A stretch of DNA of 64,000 nucleotides from Undibacterium sp. Jales W-56. GTDB lineage: Bacteria; Pseudomonadota; Gammaproteobacteria; Burkholderiales; Burkholderiaceae_D. The notes below the pieces were generated by a model, which worked only from the letters and a program-made list of their open reading frames with translations, made no database searches and was not told where the DNA came from. Made by a program: the position numbers and the translations under genes. Positions 17,513 through 62,293 of the stretch are shown here, in pieces (within the stretch, counting starts at the first letter, position 1; each line of letters starts with the position of its first letter). Location: contig NZ_JAJLQW010000002.1 of the NCBI RefSeq assembly GCF_025548535.1, positions 558,001 through 622,000 on the forward strand. Direction: 5' to 3'.

Positions 17513-18274
17513 TTAATGTGCGACGGCAAGAGCAGCGCTGCCATTAAGCGCCTCATCCGGCACCAGCACGCCTTTTTCCAGATGCACCAGGCGCCGTGCG
17601 CGCGATGCCGCCTTGGGGTCATGCGTTACCATGATGATGGTCTTACCCAAATTGCGATGCAGTTCATCGAGCAAATTCAAGATCTCTTCCGCAGTCACCC
17701 TATCCAGGTCGCCGGTAGGCTCATCGGCCACAATCAAGGCCGGATCAGTCACCAGGGCGCGCGCGATTGCGACGCGTTGTTGCTGGCCGCCGGATAACTC
17801 ATTCGGATAATGATCCATGCGGTCATCGAGACTGACCATATGCAAGGCCGCGGTTACATGGGCTTTGCGCTGGGTGCCGGATAAATGGGTCAGCAATAAG
17901 GGCAGTTCGACATTCTCAAATGCCGTCAGCACCGGCATCAGGTTATAGAACTGGAAAATGAAGCCCACATTGGCGGCACGCCAGTCCGCCAGTTGCCCTT
18001 CGCTCAGCTCGGCGATATTGACACCGGCTATTTCTATGGTGCCGCTGCTTGCTTTATCGATCCCCGCAATTAGGTTCAACAAGGTGCTTTTACCCGAACC
18101 ACTCGGCCCCATCAGCGCCAGGAACTCGGCTCTTTGGACATCCAGATTGACGCCCTGCAACACAGGTATCAACTGACCGCCGCGCACATAGGACTTATCC
18201 AGCTGACGTATCCTGATGATCGGCTCTTCAGGAACAATTTGCTGAACTGCTTCAACCACGGCGCTATCGTTCAT
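17513..18274 (-). CDS. ABC transporter ATP-binding protein (LolD/MacB-like)
   Basis: The 253-residue ATPase contains Walker [13 protein letters not shown], the signature [15 protein letters not shown], Walker [11 protein letters not shown] and the H-loop MVTHD. The sequence type matches the MacB/LolD class, which pairs with FtsX-like permeases. Its ATG overlaps the stop of the adaptor gene (ATGA), so the two are coupled. Confidence 0.95.
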
Positions 18275-19512
18275 TTGCTGGCCACCACAATTTTTGTTCC
18301 GGCAACTAATTTTTCGCCCGGAGACAACACCAGTTTGTCGCCCGATTGCAGCGCTGCCTTGATCTCGACATTGTCGCCGATTTTGCGGCCGACGCTGACC
18401 TCGATAGCCTCGACGGTATCATCCTTGATGCGGAACACTTCTTTCTTCCCTGCGCGTTCGACGATTGCTTTAGGATTCAGTGCCAACACCGGTTTTTGAT
18501 CCGCATCGGTCGCCGCCTGCGACAGGATAGTGACCTTGGCGCTCATCTCGGGCAGGATACGCGGATCGAGTTTTTCAAAGCGTATCTTGGTCATGACCGT
18601 GGCTTTGGCCCTGTCCACGGTTGGGACTATCCCGACGACGTTGCCGCGAAAACGGCTATCCGGCAAGGCATCCAGGGTAATCTCGACAGGCTGGCCGATT
18701 TTGGCTTTTGCCAGATTGCTCTCCGATACATCCGCCTCGACTTCCAGGGTGCTCATGTCGGCCATCGTCACTACCGCCCCCTGGCTGCCGGCCGCGCTGG
18801 AGAATGGCGTAATGATGTCGCCGACATTGGCGTTCTTGACCAGCACCACACCGTCGAAAGGCGCGCGGATCTCGGTAAAGTCCTGATTCACCTGTTGCAC
18901 TTTAAGCTGGGCGCGTGCCACTGCAACTGCCGCTTGCGCGGAGATCACTGCCGCCTTTGCCGAATTCACGCGCGTGGTTGCGCTGTCGAGCGCCTGCGCA
19001 GAGACAAAGCCTTGCGCTTTTAAACCCTGGCTGCGTTTAAGTTCTGCTTCGGCATTGATCAGTTCCACATTGCTCTGGGCGACCCCGGCTTCGGCCTGCC
19101 GGATACTCGCTTGCGCCGAGGCGATCGAGGCTTGTACATCACTCGCATCCAGCTTGGCGATCACCTCCCCTTGCTTGACCTGACTGCCTTCGCGTACATT
19201 CAGCCAGACCAGTCGCCCGGTGGCCTTGCTCGCCACCGCGGCACGGCGTTGTGCGACCACATATCCCGAAGCGGTCAGCTGCGCATACTGCTGCGATGGG
19301 TAAGCGGTCAGCACGGAGGTCGCCTGCACTTCGGTTTTGCCCGGGCGCAGCGCAACGCCTGTGGCGACCACGATGGCGACGATAATCGCAAGCCATTTAC
19401 CTCGCCCCGATTTCTTGCCGGAAGGAACGACGCTACGATCGATTTTGAGTTGGTTCAGGGACGAAGGCGGGGATGCCTTTGCGGGAGAGTTCGCTGGTAT
19501 TGGCTCTGTCAT
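18271..19512 (-). CDS. Periplasmic adaptor subunit (HlyD/MacA family)
   Basis: The 413-residue membrane-fusion protein has an N-terminal membrane anchor (about 42-57), a biotinyl-lipoyl-like half motif, a long alpha-helical hairpin (Ala/Gln-rich, about 110-210), then beta-barrel and membrane-proximal domains. It links the inner-membrane ABC pump to an outer-membrane channel. It leads the four-gene operon. No TolC gene is adjacent, so a channel encoded elsewhere is expected. Confidence 0.92.
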   Translation of the reverse strand: MTEPIPANSPAKASPPSSLNQLKIDRSVVPSGKKSGRGKWLAIIVAIVVATGVALRPGKTEVQATSVLTAYPSQQYAQLTASGYVVAQRRAAVASKATGRLVWLNVREGSQVKQGEVIAKLDASDVQASIASAQASIRQAEAGVAQSNVELINAEAELKRSQGLKAQGFVSAQALDSATTRVNSAKAAVISAQAAVAVARAQLKVQQVNQDFTEIRAPFDGVVLVKNANVGDIITPFSSAAGSQGAVVTMADMSTLEVEADVSESNLAKAKIGQPVEITLDALPDSRFRGNVVGIVPTVDRAKATVMTKIRFEKLDPRILPEMSAKVTILSQAATDADQKPVLALNPKAIVERAGKKEVFRIKDDTVEAIEVSVGRKIGDNVEIKAALQSGDKLVLSPGEKLVAGTKIVVASK

Positions 19513-19993
19513 TTTTCCGGTACCGGGAAGAAGAAAATAAGACTCAATGGTGGGCTAGCCACCCTCGCGTGTTTCATATAACCTGCACAATCTTAACAAT
19601 TTTAACATTCAAAAATCGCCCTGATGTGGCAGTTGCGGCAGTAAACATCGCAAATTAAACCTAATTGAATCGTCGGGACTTACGCAAAAACTAAAACCTC
19701 TCATCACAGAGACACGCAGACATAGGGCAAAGACCGGAGAGGAAAGGCGTTATGGCATTTCAATATTCAAATGAACCGCAAGCCGGGTGCGGCTGTTGGC
19801 ACGAAATGCCCCGGAAAGCCGCATCCAGTCTGCGGGTTCAATCTGAATTGTGGCAAACAGTTTTCTATTTTGCGTAAGCCCGCATAGTCATTCAATTTAA
19901 TTTAATTTGAATTTAATTCGATTCAACGCATCAAAAAATACCTTGCATCAGTCAATATCATCAACCCGGCCAAAAACATCAAAGGAGAATCGA
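19513..19993. other. Intergenic region between adaptor and Tricorn-like genes
   Basis: This 481-bp divergent region contains no gene. Its centre is occupied by MITE-like repeat copy 1 (19676-19881). The AT-rich 110 bp after the repeat presumably hold the promoter of the Tricorn-like gene. Confidence 0.6.
19676..19881 (-). mobile_element. MITE-like repeat, copy 1 of 3
   Basis: A 206-bp element bounded by imperfect 14-bp terminal inverted repeats: GGACTTACGCAAAA at the left and the complement of GGGCTTACGCAAAA at the right (13 of 14 match). In reverse complement it aligns with copies 2 and 3 across the central hairpin (19773-19839) and both ends. It encodes nothing. The lack of a transposase and the presence in several intergenic sites fit a non-autonomous element; a clear target-site duplication is not visible at this copy. 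Confidence 0.75.
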
Positions 19994-22900
19994 ATGCGCA
20001 GGACAAACCTCGGTAACAAGACGATCTTAGGTCTCATATTAAGCACCTGTTTTGCAGTGCAGTCTGCCGACGCCGATACGCTGCTGCTACGCCAGCCCAG
20101 CGTATCGCGCGACCATCTCGCCTTTGTCTATGCCGGCGATATCTGGCTGACCAGTCGTAGCGGCCAAAACCCGGTGCGGCTGACTACGCATCCTGCATCC
20201 GAGTTTTCTCCCAAGTTTTCGCCCGACGGTAAATGGCTCGCCTATTCAGCCAGCTATGACAACAATACCGACGTGTATGTTATCCCGGTTGACGGTGGAG
20301 AAGCGCGTCGCCTGACCTGGCATCCGGGTCAGGACGTCGTGGTCGGCTGGAGTGCCGACGGCAAGCGCGTCTTGTTCGCATCGAATCGCGAGATCGCCAA
20401 TAGCCGCAGCAATCAGCTATATGAAGTGCCGCTGGAAGGTGGCTACGAGAAAAAAGTCATGGAAGCCATCGCCTTTGAAGGCAACTGGTCAGGCGATGGC
20501 AAATATCTCGCCTATCGTCCCTTCCGCCAGGCCTATAGCGGTCCCAGCGGCTGGCGGCTGCACCGTGGCGGCACTACACCGCCGATCTGGATCATGGATG
20601 TCGCGAATAACAAGCTGGAAAAAATACCGCATGACAATGCCAACGACAGCAATCCGGTCTGGGTCGGCGACGAGGTATTTTTTATTTCCGACCGGGATAA
20701 CAAAGTAGCGAATCTGTTTGCCTATAACCGCAACACCAAAGCCGTGCGTCAAGTCACCAGGGAAACCACCTGGGATATCCGTAATATCAGCGCGTCCGGC
20801 AATAGCGTGGTGTACGAGGCCGGTGGCGAGCTGAAAGAATTCGATGCAGCGACGGGCAAGACGCAAACCATTCATATCAATCTGGAAGCGCAGACCACGC
20901 TAGCGATTCAGGCCCGTCCGCAATGGAAAGATGCCAGCAGCACCATCACCTCGGCCAATCTGTCGCCAACCGGCAAACGTGTCGTGCTGAGCGCGCGTGG
21001 CGAGGTATTTACCGTCCCGGTAAAAGACGGCTCGGTTCGCAACCTGACCGAGAGCTCCGGCATACGCGAAAAAGACGGCTTATGGAGCCCCGACGGCAAA
21101 CGCATTGCCTACATCTCTGACGTCGGCCGTCAGCATCGCCTGGTATTGCGTGACCAGGCCGGACTCGATCAAGCGAAAACACTGAGCTTAGGTCAGTCGG
21201 GCTATTACACGCTGCTGGCGTGGTCGCCGGATAACCAGATGATCGTGTATCAGGACAACCATCTCCAGTTGTATGTAATTCATCTCAATAACGGCAGCAT
21301 CAGCAAGATCGACGCGAGCGCGCGACGTTCAAAATTCAACGTCTCGTTTTCTTCCGACAGTAAATGGCTGGCCTACACCGTCGTGGGCGCCAATCATTTT
21401 TCGCAAATCAAATTACATGATTTCACGACGGCGAAAAATACCAGTCTGACCGACGGCATGAGTCACGCCGACCATCCTGTGTTTGCGGCGGCCGACTATT
21501 TATACTTCACCGCCTCGATCAATGCCGGCCCGACCCAGGTCGGTCTCGATATGTCAACCCAGGAACGGCCGCTACGCAATGGCTTGTATGTCGCGGTTCT
21601 GGCTGCGGATGGCAAGTCGCCTTTGTTACCCAAGACTGGCGATGAGGGAAGCAACAAAGACGATGAGAAAAAAGACGAACTTAAAAAAGAAGCGGCTAAA
21701 GACCCTGCAAAAGATGCGGCGAAAGACAAAGACGCAAGTAAGGACGCCGCTGCCAAAGTCATCAAGCCAGTCAAGATTGATCTGGCCGGTTTGCCGCAAC
21801 GTATCGCCGCTCTGCCGGTCGCAGAGCGCAATTACGACAATCTCGCAGTAGCATCGGATGGTTCCTTATTCTATCTGGAGCATCGCCAGCCCGGCGTCAG
21901 CCATGAGCCGCCAGCCAATAAGGACGATGATGATGCGGACCTGATGCGTTTTAGTTTTGAAGATAAAAAAGCGAAATCACTGCGCCAGGGCATCGCCTCT
22001 TTCAGCCTCAGCGCCGACGGTAAAAAGATCCTGATCCAGTATGCCAAGAGCAAACTCGACATTGGCGATGCCGGCGAAAAACTGGATGCGAAACCGATCG
22101 ATTTATCGCAAGTACGTATGCAAGTGAATCCACGTGAAGAATGGGAGCAAATCTTCAATGAAACATGGTGGATGGAAAAAGAATTTTTCTACGATGCCAA
22201 CCTGCACGGTATCGACTGGGATGCCATCTATACGCGCTACCATGCGCTGCTCAAACACGTGCAGCGTCGGGAAGATCTGAATGAGTTGCTGGTCGAGATG
22301 ATAGGCGAGCTGCAAGTCGGCCATAATCGCACCGGTGGCGGCGATGTCTATCAAGAGAAACCTGTCGCCGTTGGTCTGCTCGGCGCCGATTATAGCTATG
22401 AGCAGGGACATTATCGTATTAAAACCATCTATCGCGGCGATCGCTGGAATCCTTTCCTCGCAGCACCTTTGGCGGCTCCCGGCATGAATATCAAGGAAGG
22501 CGATTACTTGCTGGCGATCAACGGCAAAGCTTTGGATAAGGGTAAAAATCTGTACTCGCTGTTAGCTAACACAGTCGGTAAACAAGTGACCCTGACCGTC
22601 GCCGGCGACCTGACGAATACGCCAGGCAGGCACGTGATCGTGCAACCGGTCGCCAATGAAACAGCATTGCGCCAATGGCATTGGATAGAAAAAAATCGCG
22701 AATACGTCCAGAAAAAAACCGACGGCAAAGTCGCTTACGTGTACTTGCCGGATACCGGTTCCGACGGCTATCAATACTTTAACCGCATGTTTTATGCACA
22801 AGCCGACAAGTCCGCCCTGATCATCGACGAACGCCGCAATGGCGGCGGGCAAGCGGCCAACTACATCACCGACATCCTGAACCGCCAGTACCTGGCAAGC

Positions 22901-23332
22901 TGGAAAGACCGCGACGGCCTGTTGTTTACCACGCCGGGCGCTGCGATTTACGGCCCGAAAGCGATGTTGATCGATCAGGATGCCGGCTCCGGCGGCGACT
23001 TCTTGCCGTATTCATTCAAGCGTCTCGGTCTGGGCACCTTGATAGGCAAACGCACCTGGGGCGGCCTGATCGGGATTTCCGCCAATCCCGAACTGATTGA
23101 CGGCGGATTCTTGCTGGTACCTTTCTTCCGATTCTTTACGCCCGAAGGTGAATGGCGCATAGAAAATGAAGGCGTATCGCCGGATATCGATGTCGAACTC
23201 GATCCTACCGAGGTCAATGCAGGCAAAGACACTCAGCTCGATGCGGCAATCCAGAATGTCATGCAAAAACTCCAGACATATCAAGCGGTACAGAGACAGC
23301 AGACGCCGACGATGCCCAAGTTAGGTAAATAG
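19994..23332 (+). CDS. Tricorn-like S41 family peptidase
   Basis: The 1112-residue protein has a signal peptide (about 1-27), two successive beta-propeller regions of WD40/PD40-like repeats (recurring FSPDGKWLAY, WSPDGKRIAY), a Lys/Asp/Ala-rich linker (about 552-592), a C1-like domain, a PDZ-like region and a C-terminal S41 protease domain. The nucleophile is probably Ser999 in AGSGGD, and the motif around His777 reads QVGHNRTGG. The family degrades peptides; this one should act in the periplasm. The start at 19994 is fixed by AAAGGAG 7 bases upstream; the frame is open from 19907, but that adds an unsupported N-terminus. Confidence 0.9.
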   Translation: MRRTNLGNKTILGLILSTCFAVQSADADTLLLRQPSVSRDHLAFVYAGDIWLTSRSGQNPVRLTTHPASEFSPKFSPDGKWLAYSASYDNNTDVYVIPVDGGEARRLTWHPGQDVVVGWSADGKRVLFASNREIANSRSNQLYEVPLEGGYEKKVMEAIAFEGNWSGDGKYLAYRPFRQAYSGPSGWRLHRGGTTPPIWIMDVANNKLEKIPHDNANDSNPVWVGDEVFFISDRDNKVANLFAYNRNTKAVRQVTRETTWDIRNISASGNSVVYEAGGELKEFDAATGKTQTIHINLEAQTTLAIQARPQWKDASSTITSANLSPTGKRVVLSARGEVFTVPVKDGSVRNLTESSGIREKDGLWSPDGKRIAYISDVGRQHRLVLRDQAGLDQAKTLSLGQSGYYTLLAWSPDNQMIVYQDNHLQLYVIHLNNGSISKIDASARRSKFNVSFSSDSKWLAYTVVGANHFSQIKLHDFTTAKNTSLTDGMSHADHPVFAAADYLYFTASINAGPTQVGLDMSTQERPLRNGLYVAVLAADGKSPLLPKTGDEGSNKDDEKKDELKKEAAKDPAKDAAKDKDASKDAAAKVIKPVKIDLAGLPQRIAALPVAERNYDNLAVASDGSLFYLEHRQPGVSHEPPANKDDDDADLMRFSFEDKKAKSLRQGIASFSLSADGKKILIQYAKSKLDIGDAGEKLDAKPIDLSQVRMQVNPREEWEQIFNETWWMEKEFFYDANLHGIDWDAIYTRYHALLKHVQRREDLNELLVEMIGELQVGHNRTGGGDVYQEKPVAVGLLGADYSYEQGHYRIKTIYRGDRWNPFLAAPLAAPGMNIKEGDYLLAINGKALDKGKNLYSLLANTVGKQVTLTVAGDLTNTPGRHVIVQPVANETALRQWHWIEKNREYVQKKTDGKVAYVYLPDTGSDGYQYFNRMFYAQADKSALIIDERRNGGGQAANYITDILNRQYLASWKDRDGLLFTTPGAAIYGPKAMLIDQDAGSGGDFLPYSFKRLGLGTLIGKRTWGGLIGISANPELIDGGFLLVPFFRFFTPEGEWRIENEGVSPDIDVELDPTEVNAGKDTQLDAAIQNVMQKLQTYQAVQRQQTPTMPKLGK

Positions 23333-28066: not shown

Positions 28067-28146
28067 GAGAACCTCATTACCAAAATAGAAGGGACAATGC
28101 ATCACGCAGACGGGAACTTGCCCATCACATGCGATGACATCGCAGA

Positions 28147-28367
28147 CCCCTCTGTCCTGATACCTGAGAGATTACGGACTGGCTATAACGCCCATCCGTG
28201 CGCACCTTCGGTGGATAGTTCGGCTTGATGACAGTTGCCGCTACCGCTCTCCAGAGTTTGGGGTGTTTCTACAACCCCGCTGATCAGTCCTTTTGCCTGA
28301 GAGTTTTTGGGTGTTAGCCCCTTCGGCGGCGGCTGACAAAACTTTGTCCAGCCACGCTCTCCTGATC
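28147..28367 (-). promoter_or_regulatory. Tandem glycine riboswitch
   Basis: Two glycine aptamers lie head to tail in the gcvT leader. Aptamer 1 (28282-28367) is closed by GATCAG/CTGATC and has the conserved GGAGAG, CCGAAGGGG and CTCTCAGGCAAAAGGAC elements. Aptamer 2 (28147-28263) has GGAGAG, CCACCGAAGGTG and CTCTCAGGTATCAGGAC with a closing P1 of CCCC/GGGG plus CTCTG/CAGAG. The class activates glycine cleavage genes when glycine is abundant. About 80 bases of expression platform separate it from the gcvT start. Confidence 0.96.
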
Positions 28368-28377
28368 AAGTAGCGCG

Positions 28378-41707: not shown

Positions 41708-41892
41708 GGCGACTCCTGAGTGAATTGAATAGCCTGGCGAGGCTATATTGATTTTAATTAAGTTTAGATCAAATTCAAAGCCTAAATTTGTATCCTGTGA
41801 ATCAACTGTTTTTCGAAAAACGTTTTTAGAGGGAAGCATGCCTTTTCAGTCATGATTTATAGCCGAGACAGAGGCATTCCTTTGTTTTTTTA

Positions 41893-42091
41893 GGGCTTAC
41901 ACAAAACGGCAAGCTTACCACCGTTCATATTGAACCCGCAGGCTGGATGCGGCTTTCAGCGGCATTTCGTGCCAACAGGCGCACCCAGCTTGCGGGTTCG
42001 TTTTTATATTCATTTCATAGAACCGGTTCTCTTGCTTTTCTCTGTGTCTCCGTATCTCTGTGGTGAGAGGTTTTGATTTTTGCGCAAGTCC
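41893..42091 (+). mobile_element. MITE-like repeat, copy 2 of 3
   Basis: A 199-bp element with terminal repeats GGGCTTACACAAAA and the complement of GGACTTGCGCAAAA, flanked on both sides by the dinucleotide TA. The central hairpin (41932-41999) pairs GAACCCGCA...TGCGGC with GGCGCA...TGCGGGTTC at 19 of 22 positions and holds an inner GGCA/TGCC stem. The right end supplies the last base of the M14 peptidase stop codon (42091-42093). TA duplication is the hallmark of Tc1/mariner/IS630-type transposition. Confidence 0.8.
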
Positions 42092-43785
42092 TATTCAAAG
42101 ATTGCCAACACAGGATAACGTCGCCATTCTGGTTCGGCAAACCGTTGGCAGTGCGCGAAGATAAAATCTAGAACGGCACTTTGCTGCATCAGCAGTTCTG
42201 GATGCGCGAGTTTCCATGCTTCAAACTGGGTTTTAAGCGCTGGCTCGGTCTCCAGTAATTCAGCAGCCATGTCTTCGAATACATAATCTGAGTAGGCTTC
42301 TTTTTTCTCCAGCACGCTATTAAAAAATCCCCAGCGGAAAAAACTGTCATGCGCCTGCGGCTCCAGCGTCTCGATCACGTATCGTGCCTGCTCCTGATTG
42401 AGCGGAACCCAGACATCTCCCTCTCTGAGCTGGTGCTGACCGATGGCAGTTTCCAACTCCATTTCATCATGAAACATGTGGCCTTCGTAAGGATGCGGAC
42501 GCGATTTGACTGAGCGTATGGTATAGCTCTGTGCCTGCACTGGTTTATTCGCGCTGAGTCGCTCAAACTCCACGCCATTCCATTGCAGGCGCTCAATCGC
42601 AGCGCGCCATTGTTGCGGCACCACGTAAGCAAGCGGCGCACGCACCACGACGGCTGCTTTGAAATGATTGTAGTAAGGGATCTCTTTTTCCCAGATTTGA
42701 TTCTTGTCGTAATACAAGCGACTGTAGTCGCCCACTATACTAGGACGATGGCAAGCGGCATATCCCTTAAAGCGTACCGTCGACACCCTCTCATCGTCGC
42801 GTTGCCAATTAACAGGCCAATGATTGCGGGTCTTGCCGTTTTGCCGCGCTGCATCACGCAATTGCTGAATCTGCGCAGCATGATCGATTGTGAATTCGAG
42901 TGCGACCTCGACCAGCGCGCGCATTGATGCATAACGATCGGCAAAGGGCTTCAGCATGTGCGTCTCCGGCATAAAACCGATGGTGTGATGTAATGCTGCA
43001 TAGCCAGTTGAGAAACGCGCCGTTTCTAAAAATTCTTCAATACCCTGATCCGGGCTTTCCTGAACAGGATTCACATAGGGGCAAGTCGGCCAGCCGCGTT
43101 GCTGCATGCCTTGATATATGGCCGGCAGCATCGTCTCGCGCAGGAATTGCCCGAGGCCACCGCCCAACTTATCTGCCTGGGTATGAATCAAGGTCATCGT
43201 GTAAGGATAATCCGCACCATTCGAGGTATGCGTATCAACCATCACATCAGGATCCCAGGCCGTAAAAAATTGATTGAAAACCTGCGCATTCAGGCTATCG
43301 CATTTGATGAAATCGCGGTTCAGATCCAGATGTAGGCTATTCCCGCGAAAACCAAACATTTCCGGTCCATCCTGATTCACCCGCGAGGTATTTTGCCGAT
43401 GATGGCAACCATCTACGTTATAGATCGGGATGAATAAAAATACGCTACGACCTAAGCGGGCAAGCCGATCCGGCTGCATACAGAAATCGCGCACCAGCGC
43501 CATGCAAGCATCAATCCCCTCCGGCTCTCCCGGATGAATGCCATTGTTATTAAAAAACACCGGGCGTTTTTCAAGCGCGATCTGCTCCCGATCAAACACG
43601 CCATCGGCCGTCACCACGCCGGCATGAATAGGTACGCCCGCATCCGACACACCGATCTGACCGAAATGCAAAATCGTCGGAAAACGTTGCGCCAGTTGCT
43701 GATAAAAAGCGATGCACTGCTCCCAGGTCGTGGTTTGATTATGATTGCCTAGTTCGTAAGGTGTTTGCAGATCTGCTGACATCAT
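42091..43785 (-). CDS. M14 family zinc carboxypeptidase-like metallopeptidase
   Basis: The 564-residue protein has the M14 zinc motif HPGEPEG (His84, Glu87), a later His in DTHTSNGADY and a glutamate in MPETHMLKPF as catalytic candidates. It has no signal peptide, so it may be cytoplasmic or exported by another route. M14 enzymes remove C-terminal residues from peptides or act on cell-wall peptides. The two first codons are both ATG (43785 and 43782), with no strong ribosome site. The stop codon coincides with the edge of MITE-like copy 2. Confidence 0.87.
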   Translation of the reverse strand: MMSADLQTPYELGNHNQTTTWEQCIAFYQQLAQRFPTILHFGQIGVSDAGVPIHAGVVTADGVFDREQIALEKRPVFFNNNGIHPGEPEGIDACMALVRDFCMQPDRLARLGRSVFLFIPIYNVDGCHHRQNTSRVNQDGPEMFGFRGNSLHLDLNRDFIKCDSLNAQVFNQFFTAWDPDVMVDTHTSNGADYPYTMTLIHTQADKLGGGLGQFLRETMLPAIYQGMQQRGWPTCPYVNPVQESPDQGIEEFLETARFSTGYAALHHTIGFMPETHMLKPFADRYASMRALVEVALEFTIDHAAQIQQLRDAARQNGKTRNHWPVNWQRDDERVSTVRFKGYAACHRPSIVGDYSRLYYDKNQIWEKEIPYYNHFKAAVVVRAPLAYVVPQQWRAAIERLQWNGVEFERLSANKPVQAQSYTIRSVKSRPHPYEGHMFHDEMELETAIGQHQLREGDVWVPLNQEQARYVIETLEPQAHDSFFRWGFFNSVLEKKEAYSDYVFEDMAAELLETEPALKTQFEAWKLAHPELLMQQSAVLDFIFAHCQRFAEPEWRRYPVLAIFE

Positions 43786-58953: not shown

Positions 58954-61014
58954 ATGTATCGCATCAAACTCATCGTCTTTACTTGCCTGCTGGCGATTCC
59001 CGTCATCGCACTTATCGTATTCACCCATCTCGATTGGAATCGTGCCAAGCCCTGGCTCAACGCCCGTACCAGCGAAACGCTTGGACGACCGTTTGCGATC
59101 CGTGGCGATCTGTCTCTGACCTGGGATAAGCAAGCAGTGGGACCGGAGCTGGAAAAAAATTGGCGCGGCATGATTCCGTGGCCGCACCTGATTGCCAAAG
59201 ATATTCACATCAGCAATCCGGCATCGCTGGCTGTGTCAACGGTCGGGGGATCAAGTGACGCTAGCCCGGCTGCTGAAATGGCGAGTATCGAGCAGTTTGC
59301 TTTTTCATTAAATCCTTTAGCTTTATTGGATAAAAAAATCGCTATCCCGGTACTGCGTTTTGACGCCCCCTCAGTAAACTTATTGCGCAATGCAGACGGA
59401 CAAAATAATTGGACGCTCCCCGGCAACGATCAGGCATCCGTCTGGAAAATCGAATTACAGCGGGTGATTTTTACCAAAGGCAGCGTACATTTACTCGACG
59501 CGGTAAAACATGCCGATGTACATGCCGATATCGATACTATCGACACCGATCCTGGCTACGGCGTTAGCTGGAAATTGCATGGCAAATACGATGGAGAAAC
59601 CGTCAGTGGCAGCGGCAAAGCAGGCGCGATACTGTCGCTGCAACAGCAGACCGCGCCCTACCCGATAATGGCCAATCTGCACCTCGGTAAAACCATGATC
59701 GCGATTGAAGGTACGCTGACCAAGCCGACTGAATTGGCTGCGCTGGATATGCGTTTGAAAATAGCAGGAACCAGCATGGCGCGCCTGTATGCGCTGAGCG
59801 GCATTGTGATGCCGGAGACGCCGCCGTTTACCACCGAGGGGCATCTGATCGGGACGCTGGGTCGGCACAGCAGCCATTGGATCTATGACAACTTCAGCGG
59901 CAAAGTCGGTTCCAGCGATATCGGTGGAACCCTCGACTTACAAACCCGGCCAAGCCGTCCTGTACTGACAGGAACAATTCTGTCGCACCTGTTGCAATTC
60001 TCCGACCTTGCGCCGCTGATTGGCGCAGACTCGAATAGCAGCAAAGCAGAACGCGGCGCGACGGCACATCAACCGGCCGATAAAGTATTGCCAGTAGAAA
60101 AATTCAAGACAGAGCGCTGGACTAGCGTCGATGCAAAAATACAATTCCGTGCAGAAAAAATTATTCGCGAGAAAGAATTACCGATCAATAAACTGACCAC
60201 CACCTTGCAACTACAAGACGGCGTGCTGCGACTATCTCCTCTGAGTTTTGATGTCGCCAGCGGCAAGCTCAATGCCGATATCACTCTGGACGGCAGCGGC
60301 AAAGCCGATCAGCATGCCATCAAGGCCAGGATGAAAATCAGCGCCCGTCATCTCAAGCTGAAACAATTATTCCCGACCCTGGACGCGCTGCAAGCCAGTA
60401 TAGGCGAGATCAACGGCGACGCGTCCTTATCGGCAACTGGCAACTCGGTCGCCAGCTTATTAGGCGCATCAAACGGCGAAATCAAGACCCAGATCAATCA
60501 AGGTAGTATCAGCAAGCGCTTGCTGGAGGAAATGGGATTAAATATCGGCAATGTCGTCCTTACCTACCTTTCCGGCGACAAGCAAGTCAAACTCAATTGC
60601 ATGGCGACGGATTTTTCCGTGACCAATGGCGTGATGCAAACCCGTACTTTTATTGTCGATACGGATGATGCGATATTAAATGTCAACGGCAATATCAATA
60701 TGACGCAAGAACAATTAGATCTGACGATCAAGCCCAATAGCAAAGGTCTGCGCATTTTTTCGCTCAGGACACCGCTCTATGTACGCGGCAGTTTTAAAGA
60801 TCCGAAAGTCAGCATCGATAAAGGCGTATTAGCCTTAAAGGCCGGCGGCGCGCTCGCCCTGGCCGCCGCCGCACCTGTTGCAGCCCTGTTGCCGCTGATC
60901 AATGCCGGACCTGATGCAGAGAGCGGCTGCACCCAATTGCTGGCAGATGCCAGGGTAAAACCCGTCGCACCGGCACCGGGTAAAACCTACCGCGCTAAAG
61001 CGGCTGTTAAATAA
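58954..61014 (+). CDS. AsmA family protein
   Basis: The 686-residue protein has an N-terminal membrane helix (about 5-25) and the AsmA domain (RTSETLGRPFAIRGDLSLTW near 45, and repeating beta-strand blocks to the C-terminus). AsmA-like proteins form long beta-groove bridges that move phospholipids between the membranes. It is last in the plus-strand run before MITE-like copy 3 and ends in an Ala-rich tail. Confidence 0.93.
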   Translation: MYRIKLIVFTCLLAIPVIALIVFTHLDWNRAKPWLNARTSETLGRPFAIRGDLSLTWDKQAVGPELEKNWRGMIPWPHLIAKDIHISNPASLAVSTVGGSSDASPAAEMASIEQFAFSLNPLALLDKKIAIPVLRFDAPSVNLLRNADGQNNWTLPGNDQASVWKIELQRVIFTKGSVHLLDAVKHADVHADIDTIDTDPGYGVSWKLHGKYDGETVSGSGKAGAILSLQQQTAPYPIMANLHLGKTMIAIEGTLTKPTELAALDMRLKIAGTSMARLYALSGIVMPETPPFTTEGHLIGTLGRHSSHWIYDNFSGKVGSSDIGGTLDLQTRPSRPVLTGTILSHLLQFSDLAPLIGADSNSSKAERGATAHQPADKVLPVEKFKTERWTSVDAKIQFRAEKIIREKELPINKLTTTLQLQDGVLRLSPLSFDVASGKLNADITLDGSGKADQHAIKARMKISARHLKLKQLFPTLDALQASIGEINGDASLSATGNSVASLLGASNGEIKTQINQGSISKRLLEEMGLNIGNVVLTYLSGDKQVKLNCMATDFSVTNGVMQTRTFIVDTDDAILNVNGNINMTQEQLDLTIKPNSKGLRIFSLRTPLYVRGSFKDPKVSIDKGVLALKAGGALALAAAAPVAALLPLINAGPDAESGCTQLLADARVKPVAPAPGKTYRAKAAVK

Positions 61015-61064
61015 GGATATTCACCAAGTTTGGTGGCGCGTTTGGATATGCATGTACGCTGAAA

Positions 61065-61237
61065 TGCAAAACCACATCCCGCTTAGCCACAGGCTGAATG
61101 CGGCTTACAGAGACATTTCGTGCCAACAGGCGCATCCGGCTTGCGGCTTCGTTTTTAATATCGACATTCTATCGAGCCGTTTACTCTCGCCTTTTTCTAT
61201 GTCTCAGTAGTGAGTAATTTTGGTTTTGCGTAAAACC
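61065..61237 (+). mobile_element. MITE-like repeat, copy 3 of 3 (decayed)
   Basis: The core (61087-61150) aligns with copy 2 through GGCTGAATGCGGCTTACAG, CATTTCGTGCCAACAGGCGC and GGCTTGCGGC. The right end still reads TTTTGCGTAAAACC. The left terminal repeat is reduced to TGCAAAAC, and the hairpin pairing is poorer than in copies 1 and 2, so this copy is older or damaged. Confidence 0.6.
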
Positions 61238-61284
61238 TACGGCTGAAACAACTATGACGATAATGTGAACCGCCTTCACCCCAA

Positions 61285-61395: not shown

Positions 61396-62229
61396 CTATT
61401 TGCGCTCAGGTCGCATGCGATGCGTGACATCCATACCGATGCCGCGATAGCCGGTAAAGCGACTCGATGAGTCGAACATCGGTTCGCCGCTGACTTGCAG
61501 ATATTGAATACTGCCATCCGCATTGGTACGGCTATACACAAAATCGAGAAACGGGCGGCGACTCGCGATGTTGGCATTCAATTGGGCGCGCTCGGCGGCA
61601 TTCCAGCCAGCCAGGGCTCTAGGACTTTCGCCCAGCATATCGTCGGCATCAATACCCAGCATCTCGAACACCGGACCGGATATGCTGGTGAAATTACCCT
61701 GAGGATCCTGTTCCCAGTACCAGTCGGAAGACAGTTCAGTAAAACTCTTGAAGCGGGCTTCGCTCGCGCGTAATTCTGCGGTGCGCTCCATGACGGTTTG
61801 CTCCAGCACTTTGCTGTAATTTTCCAACTTGCGATACAACAGCCGTACTTCCAGCATATTGTGAATCCGCGTTTGCACCTCAACCAGATCAAACGGCTTA
61901 CTGACAAAATCTTTGGCACCGGCTTGCAGTGCCTTCAACTTGTGTCCCGGCTGCGCGGTGATGACCAGTATGGGGAGATAACTATCGGCGTCAATTCTCT
62001 TCAATGCCTCCATCACCTCAAAGCCATCAAATCCAGGCATTTGCAAATCCAGCAAAATCAAATCATAGCGATGTTCTGCATGCAGATCGCAGACTGTGCG
62101 TGGATCCATGGTGCTGGTGATATTGGTATAACCGCGATTCGTCAGCATCTGCTCCAATAACATCACATTCGCTTTTTGGTCATCGACGACCAGGATACTC
62201 GCATTGAGGAATTCGGCTGCTTCTAACAT
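61396..62229 (-). CDS. Receiver-PAS domain protein without output domain
   Basis: The 277-residue protein has an N-terminal receiver (Asp61 in LILLDLQMPG, Lys in FVSKPFDLVE), a coiled-coil linker and a PAS/PAC domain (about 160-270, with SSDWYWEQDPQGNFTSIS and GYRGIGMDVT). It stops right after the PAC motif, with no GGDEF, EAL or kinase domain. ATG 62229 is chosen with GGAAG 6 bases upstream. The hybrid kinase gene upstream ends 64 bp away and is the likely partner. Confidence 0.87.
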   Translation of the reverse strand: MLEAAEFLNASILVVDDQKANVMLLEQMLTNRGYTNITSTMDPRTVCDLHAEHRYDLILLDLQMPGFDGFEVMEALKRIDADSYLPILVITAQPGHKLKALQAGAKDFVSKPFDLVEVQTRIHNMLEVRLLYRKLENYSKVLEQTVMERTAELRASEARFKSFTELSSDWYWEQDPQGNFTSISGPVFEMLGIDADDMLGESPRALAGWNAAERAQLNANIASRRPFLDFVYSRTNADGSIQYLQVSGEPMFDSSSRFTGYRGIGMDVTHRMRPERK

Positions 62230-62293
62230 GATGATCTTCCAAATATTTTTCAAAAACGCTTATATCGCTCATACCGCGACTATGACCAGCGGC

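Follow-up and report, generated by a model that had tools for sequence, protein, structure and literature searches.

The 64-kb stretch of Undibacterium DNA analysed here (the window) carries a sequence of about 200 bp at three intergenic places, and the locus raises the question of what this repeat is, how it travels, and what its central hairpin is doing there. The initial annotation had described the three stretches as one family of MITE-like elements with inverted ends and a conserved hairpin. When aligned with copy 2, copy 1 gave an E-value of 1e-40 with 77.8% identity over 207 columns and copy 3 gave 1e-26, so that the three indeed form one family; their features are collected in Table 1. 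Copy 1 lies between two divergent ORFs, one with an HlyD/CusB-type domain (18271-19512, -) and one with a tricorn-type peptidase domain (19907-23332, +), and copy 3 is flanked by two convergent ORFs, AsmA on the left (58954-61014, +) and a response regulator on the right (61396-62253, -). The right end of copy 2 provides the TAG stop of a Peptidase_M14 ORF (42091-43785, -), and this copy is also located upstream of a 175-aa ORF without a Pfam match. A search of the window against Rfam at the gathering threshold yielded two glycine riboswitch aptamers and a tRNA, all away from the MITE copies, and five of the loci searched at E at most 0.5 gave 8 matches, none of which reached its gathering score and every one of which was to an RNA family of eukaryotes. 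Within these tests, the family is not a known structured RNA. The two aptamers (RF00504) stand side by side at 28142-28374 on the minus strand.

Table 1. Coordinates in the window of the three MITE copies and of their parts
Feature	Position	Strand	Evidence
MITE copy 1, whole, including degenerate outer dinucleotides	19674..19883	-	alignment, reading
H palindrome core of copy 1	19773..19839	-	core match C12:577788-577822 -
MITE copy 2, whole element	41891..42093	+	alignment, reading
Left terminal inverted repeat, copy 2 (TAGGGCTTACACAAAA)	41891..41906	+	reading, family consensus
H palindrome core of copy 2 (GAACCCGCAGGCTGGATGCGG ... GCGCACCCAGCTTGCGGGTTC)	41932..41999	+	core match
CTCTGTG module of copy 2	42040..42070	+	reading
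Right terminal inverted repeat, copy 2 (TTTTTGCGCAAGTCCTA)	42077..42093	+	reading, family consensus
MITE copy 3, decayed on the left, where its limit is uncertain	61041..61239	+	alignment, reading
H palindrome core of copy 3, with a degraded outer arm on the left	61083..61150	+	core match C12:619100-619134 +

Across the 4.19-Mb genome that holds the window (G000, 20 contigs), a 35-base core pattern had 116 matches with at most 3 mismatches, 52 forward and 64 reverse, while the reversed pattern used as a control had none. With up to 5 mismatches allowed, we gathered 117 distinct elements from 180 loci of this genome, which is a lower bound on the number of copies. A family with many genomic members had been predicted and exists, with at least 117 copies, and the count of three was too low for the genome as a whole; one additional copy lies about 0.7 kb to the left of the window (C12:557063-557267). 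Elements with both ends placed (77) have a median length of 204 bp, the outer dinucleotides not counted, and each copy, at about 205 bp, is too short to encode a transposase, in agreement with the first reading. No DNA similar to the MITE was found in plasmid sequences, nor any exact match in viral contigs. We found no account of miniature inverted-repeat elements in Undibacterium in the literature. Judged by title and abstract opening, the papers on palindromic repeats and Undibacterium do not concern this element, and the matches to an 11-mer of its end include no transposon paper; judged by title, those on ISKra4 and MITEs contain nothing on these ends.

The ends of the family, YAGGACTTACGCAAAA / TTTTGCGTAAGTCCTR, are consistent inverted repeats. 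Both ends were placed in 77 of the 117 elements, the left one only in 24, the right one only in 11, and neither in 5. Copy 2 runs from TA-GGGCTTACAC to GCGCAAGTCC-TA; the inverted repeats reported at first are present and consistent in the family, but they extend 2 bases further on each side, and copy 3 has lost a recognisable left repeat. Target duplications were sought by a grid over offsets and lengths, with shuffled pairings of the flanks as the control. The grid had a single clear optimum, a 5-bp duplication directly outside YA-GGACTTACGC ... GCGTAAGTCC-TR. An exact 5-mer duplication was found in 25 of the 77 elements, compared with 1.45 in shuffled pairings, and with at most one mismatch the numbers were 54 of 77 and 7.15. 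Because the duplicated 5-mer lies outside them, the terminal dinucleotides Y-A / T-R belong to the element itself. By eye, a clean duplication is absent from all three window copies; the duplication is a property of the family as a whole.

These duplications bear directly on the origin proposed by the initial annotation, namely a MITE derived from an IS630/Tc1-mariner element with a TA duplication. Copy 2 and many other copies do start with TA and finish with TA. However, since the 5-mer duplication stands outside the terminal dinucleotides, this TA is part of the element; the duplication test on the 77 elements leads us to reject the proposal, and we give such a derivation almost no credence. 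With inverted ends, a target duplication, a high copy number and no space for a transposase, the family has the structure by which MITEs are recognised, and the element is a MITE, a non-autonomous DNA transposon. The MITE-like nature and consistent ends assigned to it from three copies hold for the family of at least 117 copies, in 77 of which both ends were placed.

The ends are not confined to this genome. In the relative G014, the family end sequence had 254 matches compared with 8 in the control, at about 100 places among those listed. From 20 fetched stretches and two earlier loci, 19 G014 elements were kept by the pair filter. Their lengths are 99-104 bp in 13, 58-85 bp in four, and 201 and 209 bp in the two that carry two CTCTGTG modules. 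Exact 5-bp duplications border 7 of the 19, compared with 0.06 expected. As these elements share both the ends and the duplications, the ends define a group of MITEs with exchangeable interiors, present in at least two Undibacterium genomes. The loci L331-L350 of G014 hold MITEs of about 103 bp with YAGGACTTACGC ends like those of the family and a different interior.

The partner to be expected is a transposase that makes 5-bp duplications, which corrects the earlier expectation of an IS630. ISKra4, considered as a partner because of the look of the ends, had no match in G000 and matches in 2 of 37 genomes, and the strong match (in G018) lacks the MITE ends. PF01609 was searched in 4 genomes with 34 matches, and 30 loci were fetched, from G000, G014 and G035; 13 of them were read for the MITE ends, and at none of the 30 did these flank the gene on both sides. 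At one locus (L380), a PF01609 gene is located 0.7 kb from an ordinary MITE copy. A scan of 330 fetched loci for end pairs 0.7-5 kb apart returned 7 rows, 6 of them distinct (L030 is the same as L059). Each pair encloses one ORF of at least 150 aa, none of which is a transposase by Pfam; the domains found were Exo_endo_phos, TctC, Acetyltransf_6 (below the cut-off), Rotamase and Band_7. The full-length element with the same ends that the initial annotation had anticipated was not found by the ISKra4 search (37 genomes), the PF01609 search (4 genomes) or the end-pair scans of the fetched loci.

The core of the MITE belongs to a palindrome family of about 75 bp, which we call H. The loop CATTTCGTGCCAACAG, described from the window as invariant, is strongly conserved but not invariant, being exact in 42 of 117 copies and within 2 mismatches in 112, and the inner GGCA/TGCC stem, although present, is fully paired in just 58 of the 117. 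Copy 2, the sole copy so tested, folds much better than shuffled sequence (z -4.7). Among the 117 copies of G000, the arms of H are paired in 89.5% of cells compared with 89.3% when arms are shuffled, and there is no excess of covariation (13 double changes compared with 11.6 in shuffled arms). Since the arms pair no better than shuffled ones, selection on pairing in each MITE copy is not supported. Variation in the core appears three-periodic by eye, as it might be if the core were coding, a reading that we did not adopt.

Most of the 117 elements had been collected through the core, and this inflated the core conservation in our first figures. We therefore assembled a set free of this bias from 81 distinct right-end matches (83 in another count), of which 23 of the left type were dropped, leaving 58; a further 11 fell below the threshold for the left end or the module, leaving 47 elements. 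In these 47, identity to the consensus was 0.895 for H and 0.745 and 0.746 for the two spacers. The CTCTGTG module and the left end, both of which had served as filters, reached 0.823 and 0.892. H was more conserved than the left spacer in 43 and than the right spacer in 44 of the 47 elements, and over all 58 right ends the values were 0.855 for H and 0.680 and 0.724 for the spacers. H in the MITE is thus better conserved than the spacers, even when elements are selected by the right end only. As regards position, genes were called with a simple ORF finder that had been trained on the window. None of the 107 elements that could be judged in G000 (10 of the 117 could not) has over half of its length within a called gene; 32 occupy convergent, 61 tandem and 14 divergent gaps. 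In three of the 117 copies (L104, L176, L196), the CTCTGTG module is found only on the opposite side of the core. By eye, the H core of L104 and L176 runs opposite to the MITE arms, an arrangement that an exchange at the hairpin arms might give.

H also exists outside the MITE. A covariance model built from the 117 G000 cores, run with search filters that lose some weak matches, matched 10 of 40 other Undibacterium genomes. With the same loss, it had no match in the 28 genomes that represented other families of the order. An exact hairpin pattern occurred in three stretches of the GTDB contigs, all from Undibacterium MAGs, one being contig C328 of G035. We gathered 69 hairpins from the relatives, most of which, by eye, stand without MITE arms, and some G000 copies likewise appear outside the MITE by eye (L358, L360, L365, L369). 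The inner parts of H are constant, with ATGCGSCTT on one side, AGSCGCAT on the other and a CATTTYGTGCC-like loop. The outer stem varies between the copies of the relatives, yet it remains paired: in 67 of the 69 hairpins, 684 of 804 outer cells are paired, compared with 517.7 +- 11.7 (maximum 558) in 1000 shuffles that exchanged arms between copies, a count in which L235 (G013) and L298 (G015), identical in sequence, were entered twice. Paired arm cells numbered 174 of 192 in G006 (143.6 shuffled, maximum 161) and 157 of 192 in G015 (134.6, maximum 153); in G025 they numbered 153 of 180 compared with 139.2, and the best shuffle, 155, exceeds the observed value. The hairpins L227 (G033), L234 (G017) and L237 (G027) lie upstream of the same ORF start, and some H are therefore old and common to several species. 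Being repeated, mostly extragenic and kept as a hairpin by compensatory change, H is a REP-like palindrome in a loose sense. The initial annotation had set a REP family against its own reading of the repeat; the core is indeed part of a REP-like palindrome family that occurs in the genus independently of the MITE, but neither a constant GTAG tag nor the paired flanking of RAYT genes goes with it.

H might nevertheless be a genuine REP that a RAYT tyrosine transposase mobilises, the arms seen in G000 being merely conserved flanks of a REP-based element. RAYT-family genes are common (24 of 46 genomes above the cut-off), H is palindromic and repeated, and one H (E 5.6e-10) lies about 0.2 kb downstream of the RAYT gene L249. 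With the filters off, H-like matches also appear at the RAYT loci L281 (1e-5), L282 (1.5e-4) and L278 in G000 (0.016), and about 0.9 kb from the orthologous RAYT pair L279/L280 (1e-3). With default filters, however, H is present at only 1 of 21 RAYT loci, and the palindromes that adjoin the RAYT genes L252, L278 (G000) and L249 (G013) are, by eye, others that begin with GTAG. Few H have GTAG close to the base, 5 of 117 copies in G000 and 2 of 69 in the relatives. In REP systems two cognate inverted copies flank the rayt gene, and no RAYT locus here had a strong H on each side. Single-strand mobilisation by a RAYT would not be expected to leave inverted ends with 5-bp duplications, which also counts against this alternative, and we consider it unlikely. 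The RAYT genes L252, L278 and L249 with their GTAG palindromes are classical REP/RAYT systems distinct from H, and a few H copies of G014 and G035 read CGTCC at the palindrome base by eye. REPs with RAYT (PMC2817692; PMC3733652) resemble H in being repeated and mostly extragenic, in having a constant part and in serving as insertion targets. Unlike them, H has no constant GTAG tag, the RAYT genes read here carry other palindromes, and most of the collected G000 copies of H are part of a transposon that is bordered by 5-bp duplications.

The positions of H in the relatives bear on what it may do. There, H lies in 24 convergent, 23 tandem and 2 divergent gaps (49 of the 69 were classified, 17 could not be judged and 3 overlap an ORF), compared with 9, 65 and 16 in the other gaps of the G000 loci, which come from a different genome. 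Many of these H are within 40 bp of a gene boundary, by the printed distances, and A- and T-runs stand beside many of the palindromes by eye. A role at transcript ends would fit these positions. H could accordingly be mainly a bidirectional terminator or an mRNA 3'-end structure for which the MITE is the vehicle, a proposal that concerns the role of H only and is compatible with its capture by a MITE. On the other hand, a simple scan for terminators was negative at copy 2, the sole copy examined in this way; the T-run does not directly adjoin the GC stem; the constant inner segment would be superfluous for a plain terminator; and the distribution of the MITE gaps in G000 is close to that of the intergenic space of the window. 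On balance we regard this role as possible, while leaning against it as the main one.

The right part of the MITE also occurs in relatives. With copy 2 as the query, the matches listed come from at least 23 of 35 relatives within the genus and from one genome that belongs to another family, and they cover the CTCTGTG module and the right end, not the core. At 20 of 28 fetched module loci there is no MITE end, and in the loci read the module forms facing pairs. Of six loci with PF13366 genes, four have the module on either side of the gene, one has it on one side, and one, near a contig edge, lacks it; a seventh PF13366 match (L217) was below the cut-off and left out. The CTCTGTG repeat is presumably a companion of GxxExxY genes, and the six loci agree. 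As a candidate partner of the MITE, PF13366 (GxxExxY) was rejected, none of the six loci read having MITE ends. At L212 (G000:C16:372178-372525), a PF13366 gene flanked by inverted CTCTGTG modules sits between ORFs that resemble a trp operon by eye; L211, L213, L215 and L216 are further PF13366 genes with modules beside them. No occurrence of 15-mers of the module was found in the literature.

A second MITE, a 124-bp repeat with the ends AGGGAACTTCTAAAAACCC ... TTTTTAGAAGTTACCT, is associated with H. At least 21 copies covering at least 100 bases are present in G000 (40 of 46 candidates scored), and in 17 of the 21 an H match (model E at most 0.1) starts or finishes within 20 bp, on either side. 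Of the remaining copies, L357 has a degenerate H by eye, and L367, L372 and L374 have no H within that 20-bp range. The same junction occurs in G006 (L219, L239, L247), G013 (L221, L322) and G015 (L223, L302). As the second MITE is so regularly found at the base of H, H must be a preferred landing site for it. Its own duplication is 4 bp by eye: TTTA (L351), TTGA (L353) and TACA (L352). The G000 copies of the second MITE, with GGGAACTTCTAAAAA ends, are among L351-L372, and the second MITE also adjoins L196, one of the copies with a displaced module. Insertion sequences that choose REPs are already known; ISPsy8, ISPa11, ISPpu9, ISPpu10, ISRm22 and ISRm19 (PMC1525189) are likewise found specifically at a repeated palindrome. 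Unlike those, the targeting element here is a MITE of about 124 bp, it stands at the hairpin base on either side, and the targeted H copies also include ones inside another MITE.

Taken together, our results very probably describe a MITE that took up a REP-like palindrome, was amplified with it, is mobilised in trans and has kept H, and whose H is in turn the target of a second MITE. A transposase of the cut-and-paste type would recognise the MITE ends and move the element in trans. The interior would be a mosaic, with the genus-specific REP-like palindrome H at the centre and the CTCTGTG module at the right, and all copies would descend from a single capture of H. Some factor may recognise the hairpin together with the inner segment that stays constant (ATGCGSCTT ... 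CATTTYGTGCC ... AGSCGCAT); alternatively, or in addition, H may end or protect transcripts. For these reasons H would have been kept, so that insertions near genes could be tolerated.

To our knowledge, the ends of RUP, NEMIS, Bcr1, ERIC, YPAL, Nezha and EFAR differ from those reported here. These bacterial MITEs (PMC3733652) are like our element in their size of 70-300 bp, inverted ends, absence of genes and many gene-adjacent copies. Unlike them, the present one has as its interior a palindrome of which the genus also has free-standing copies, and no parent transposase was found for it in the families and loci searched.

MITEs and REPs are usually held to be separate classes of small bacterial repeats, and we found nothing in the literature that treats the two as a nested or mosaic element. 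In one species, a MITE has a REP-like palindrome as its conserved heart; in the relatives, the palindrome stands alone; and a second MITE sits at the palindrome. More tentatively, H could be a genus-specific palindrome read by a factor specific for its sequence and structure, at once a signal at gene ends and a docking site for transposition, which the MITE has spread. If so, the MITE that swallowed H would have gained harmless or even useful insertions and carried H to more than 100 intergenic places in one species, and a transposon would be the distribution vehicle of a regulatory hairpin. Collectively, these genomes offer a natural before-and-after system for asking what keeps palindromes of this kind, whether transcripts end at the hairpin, and how it comes to be chosen as an insertion site.
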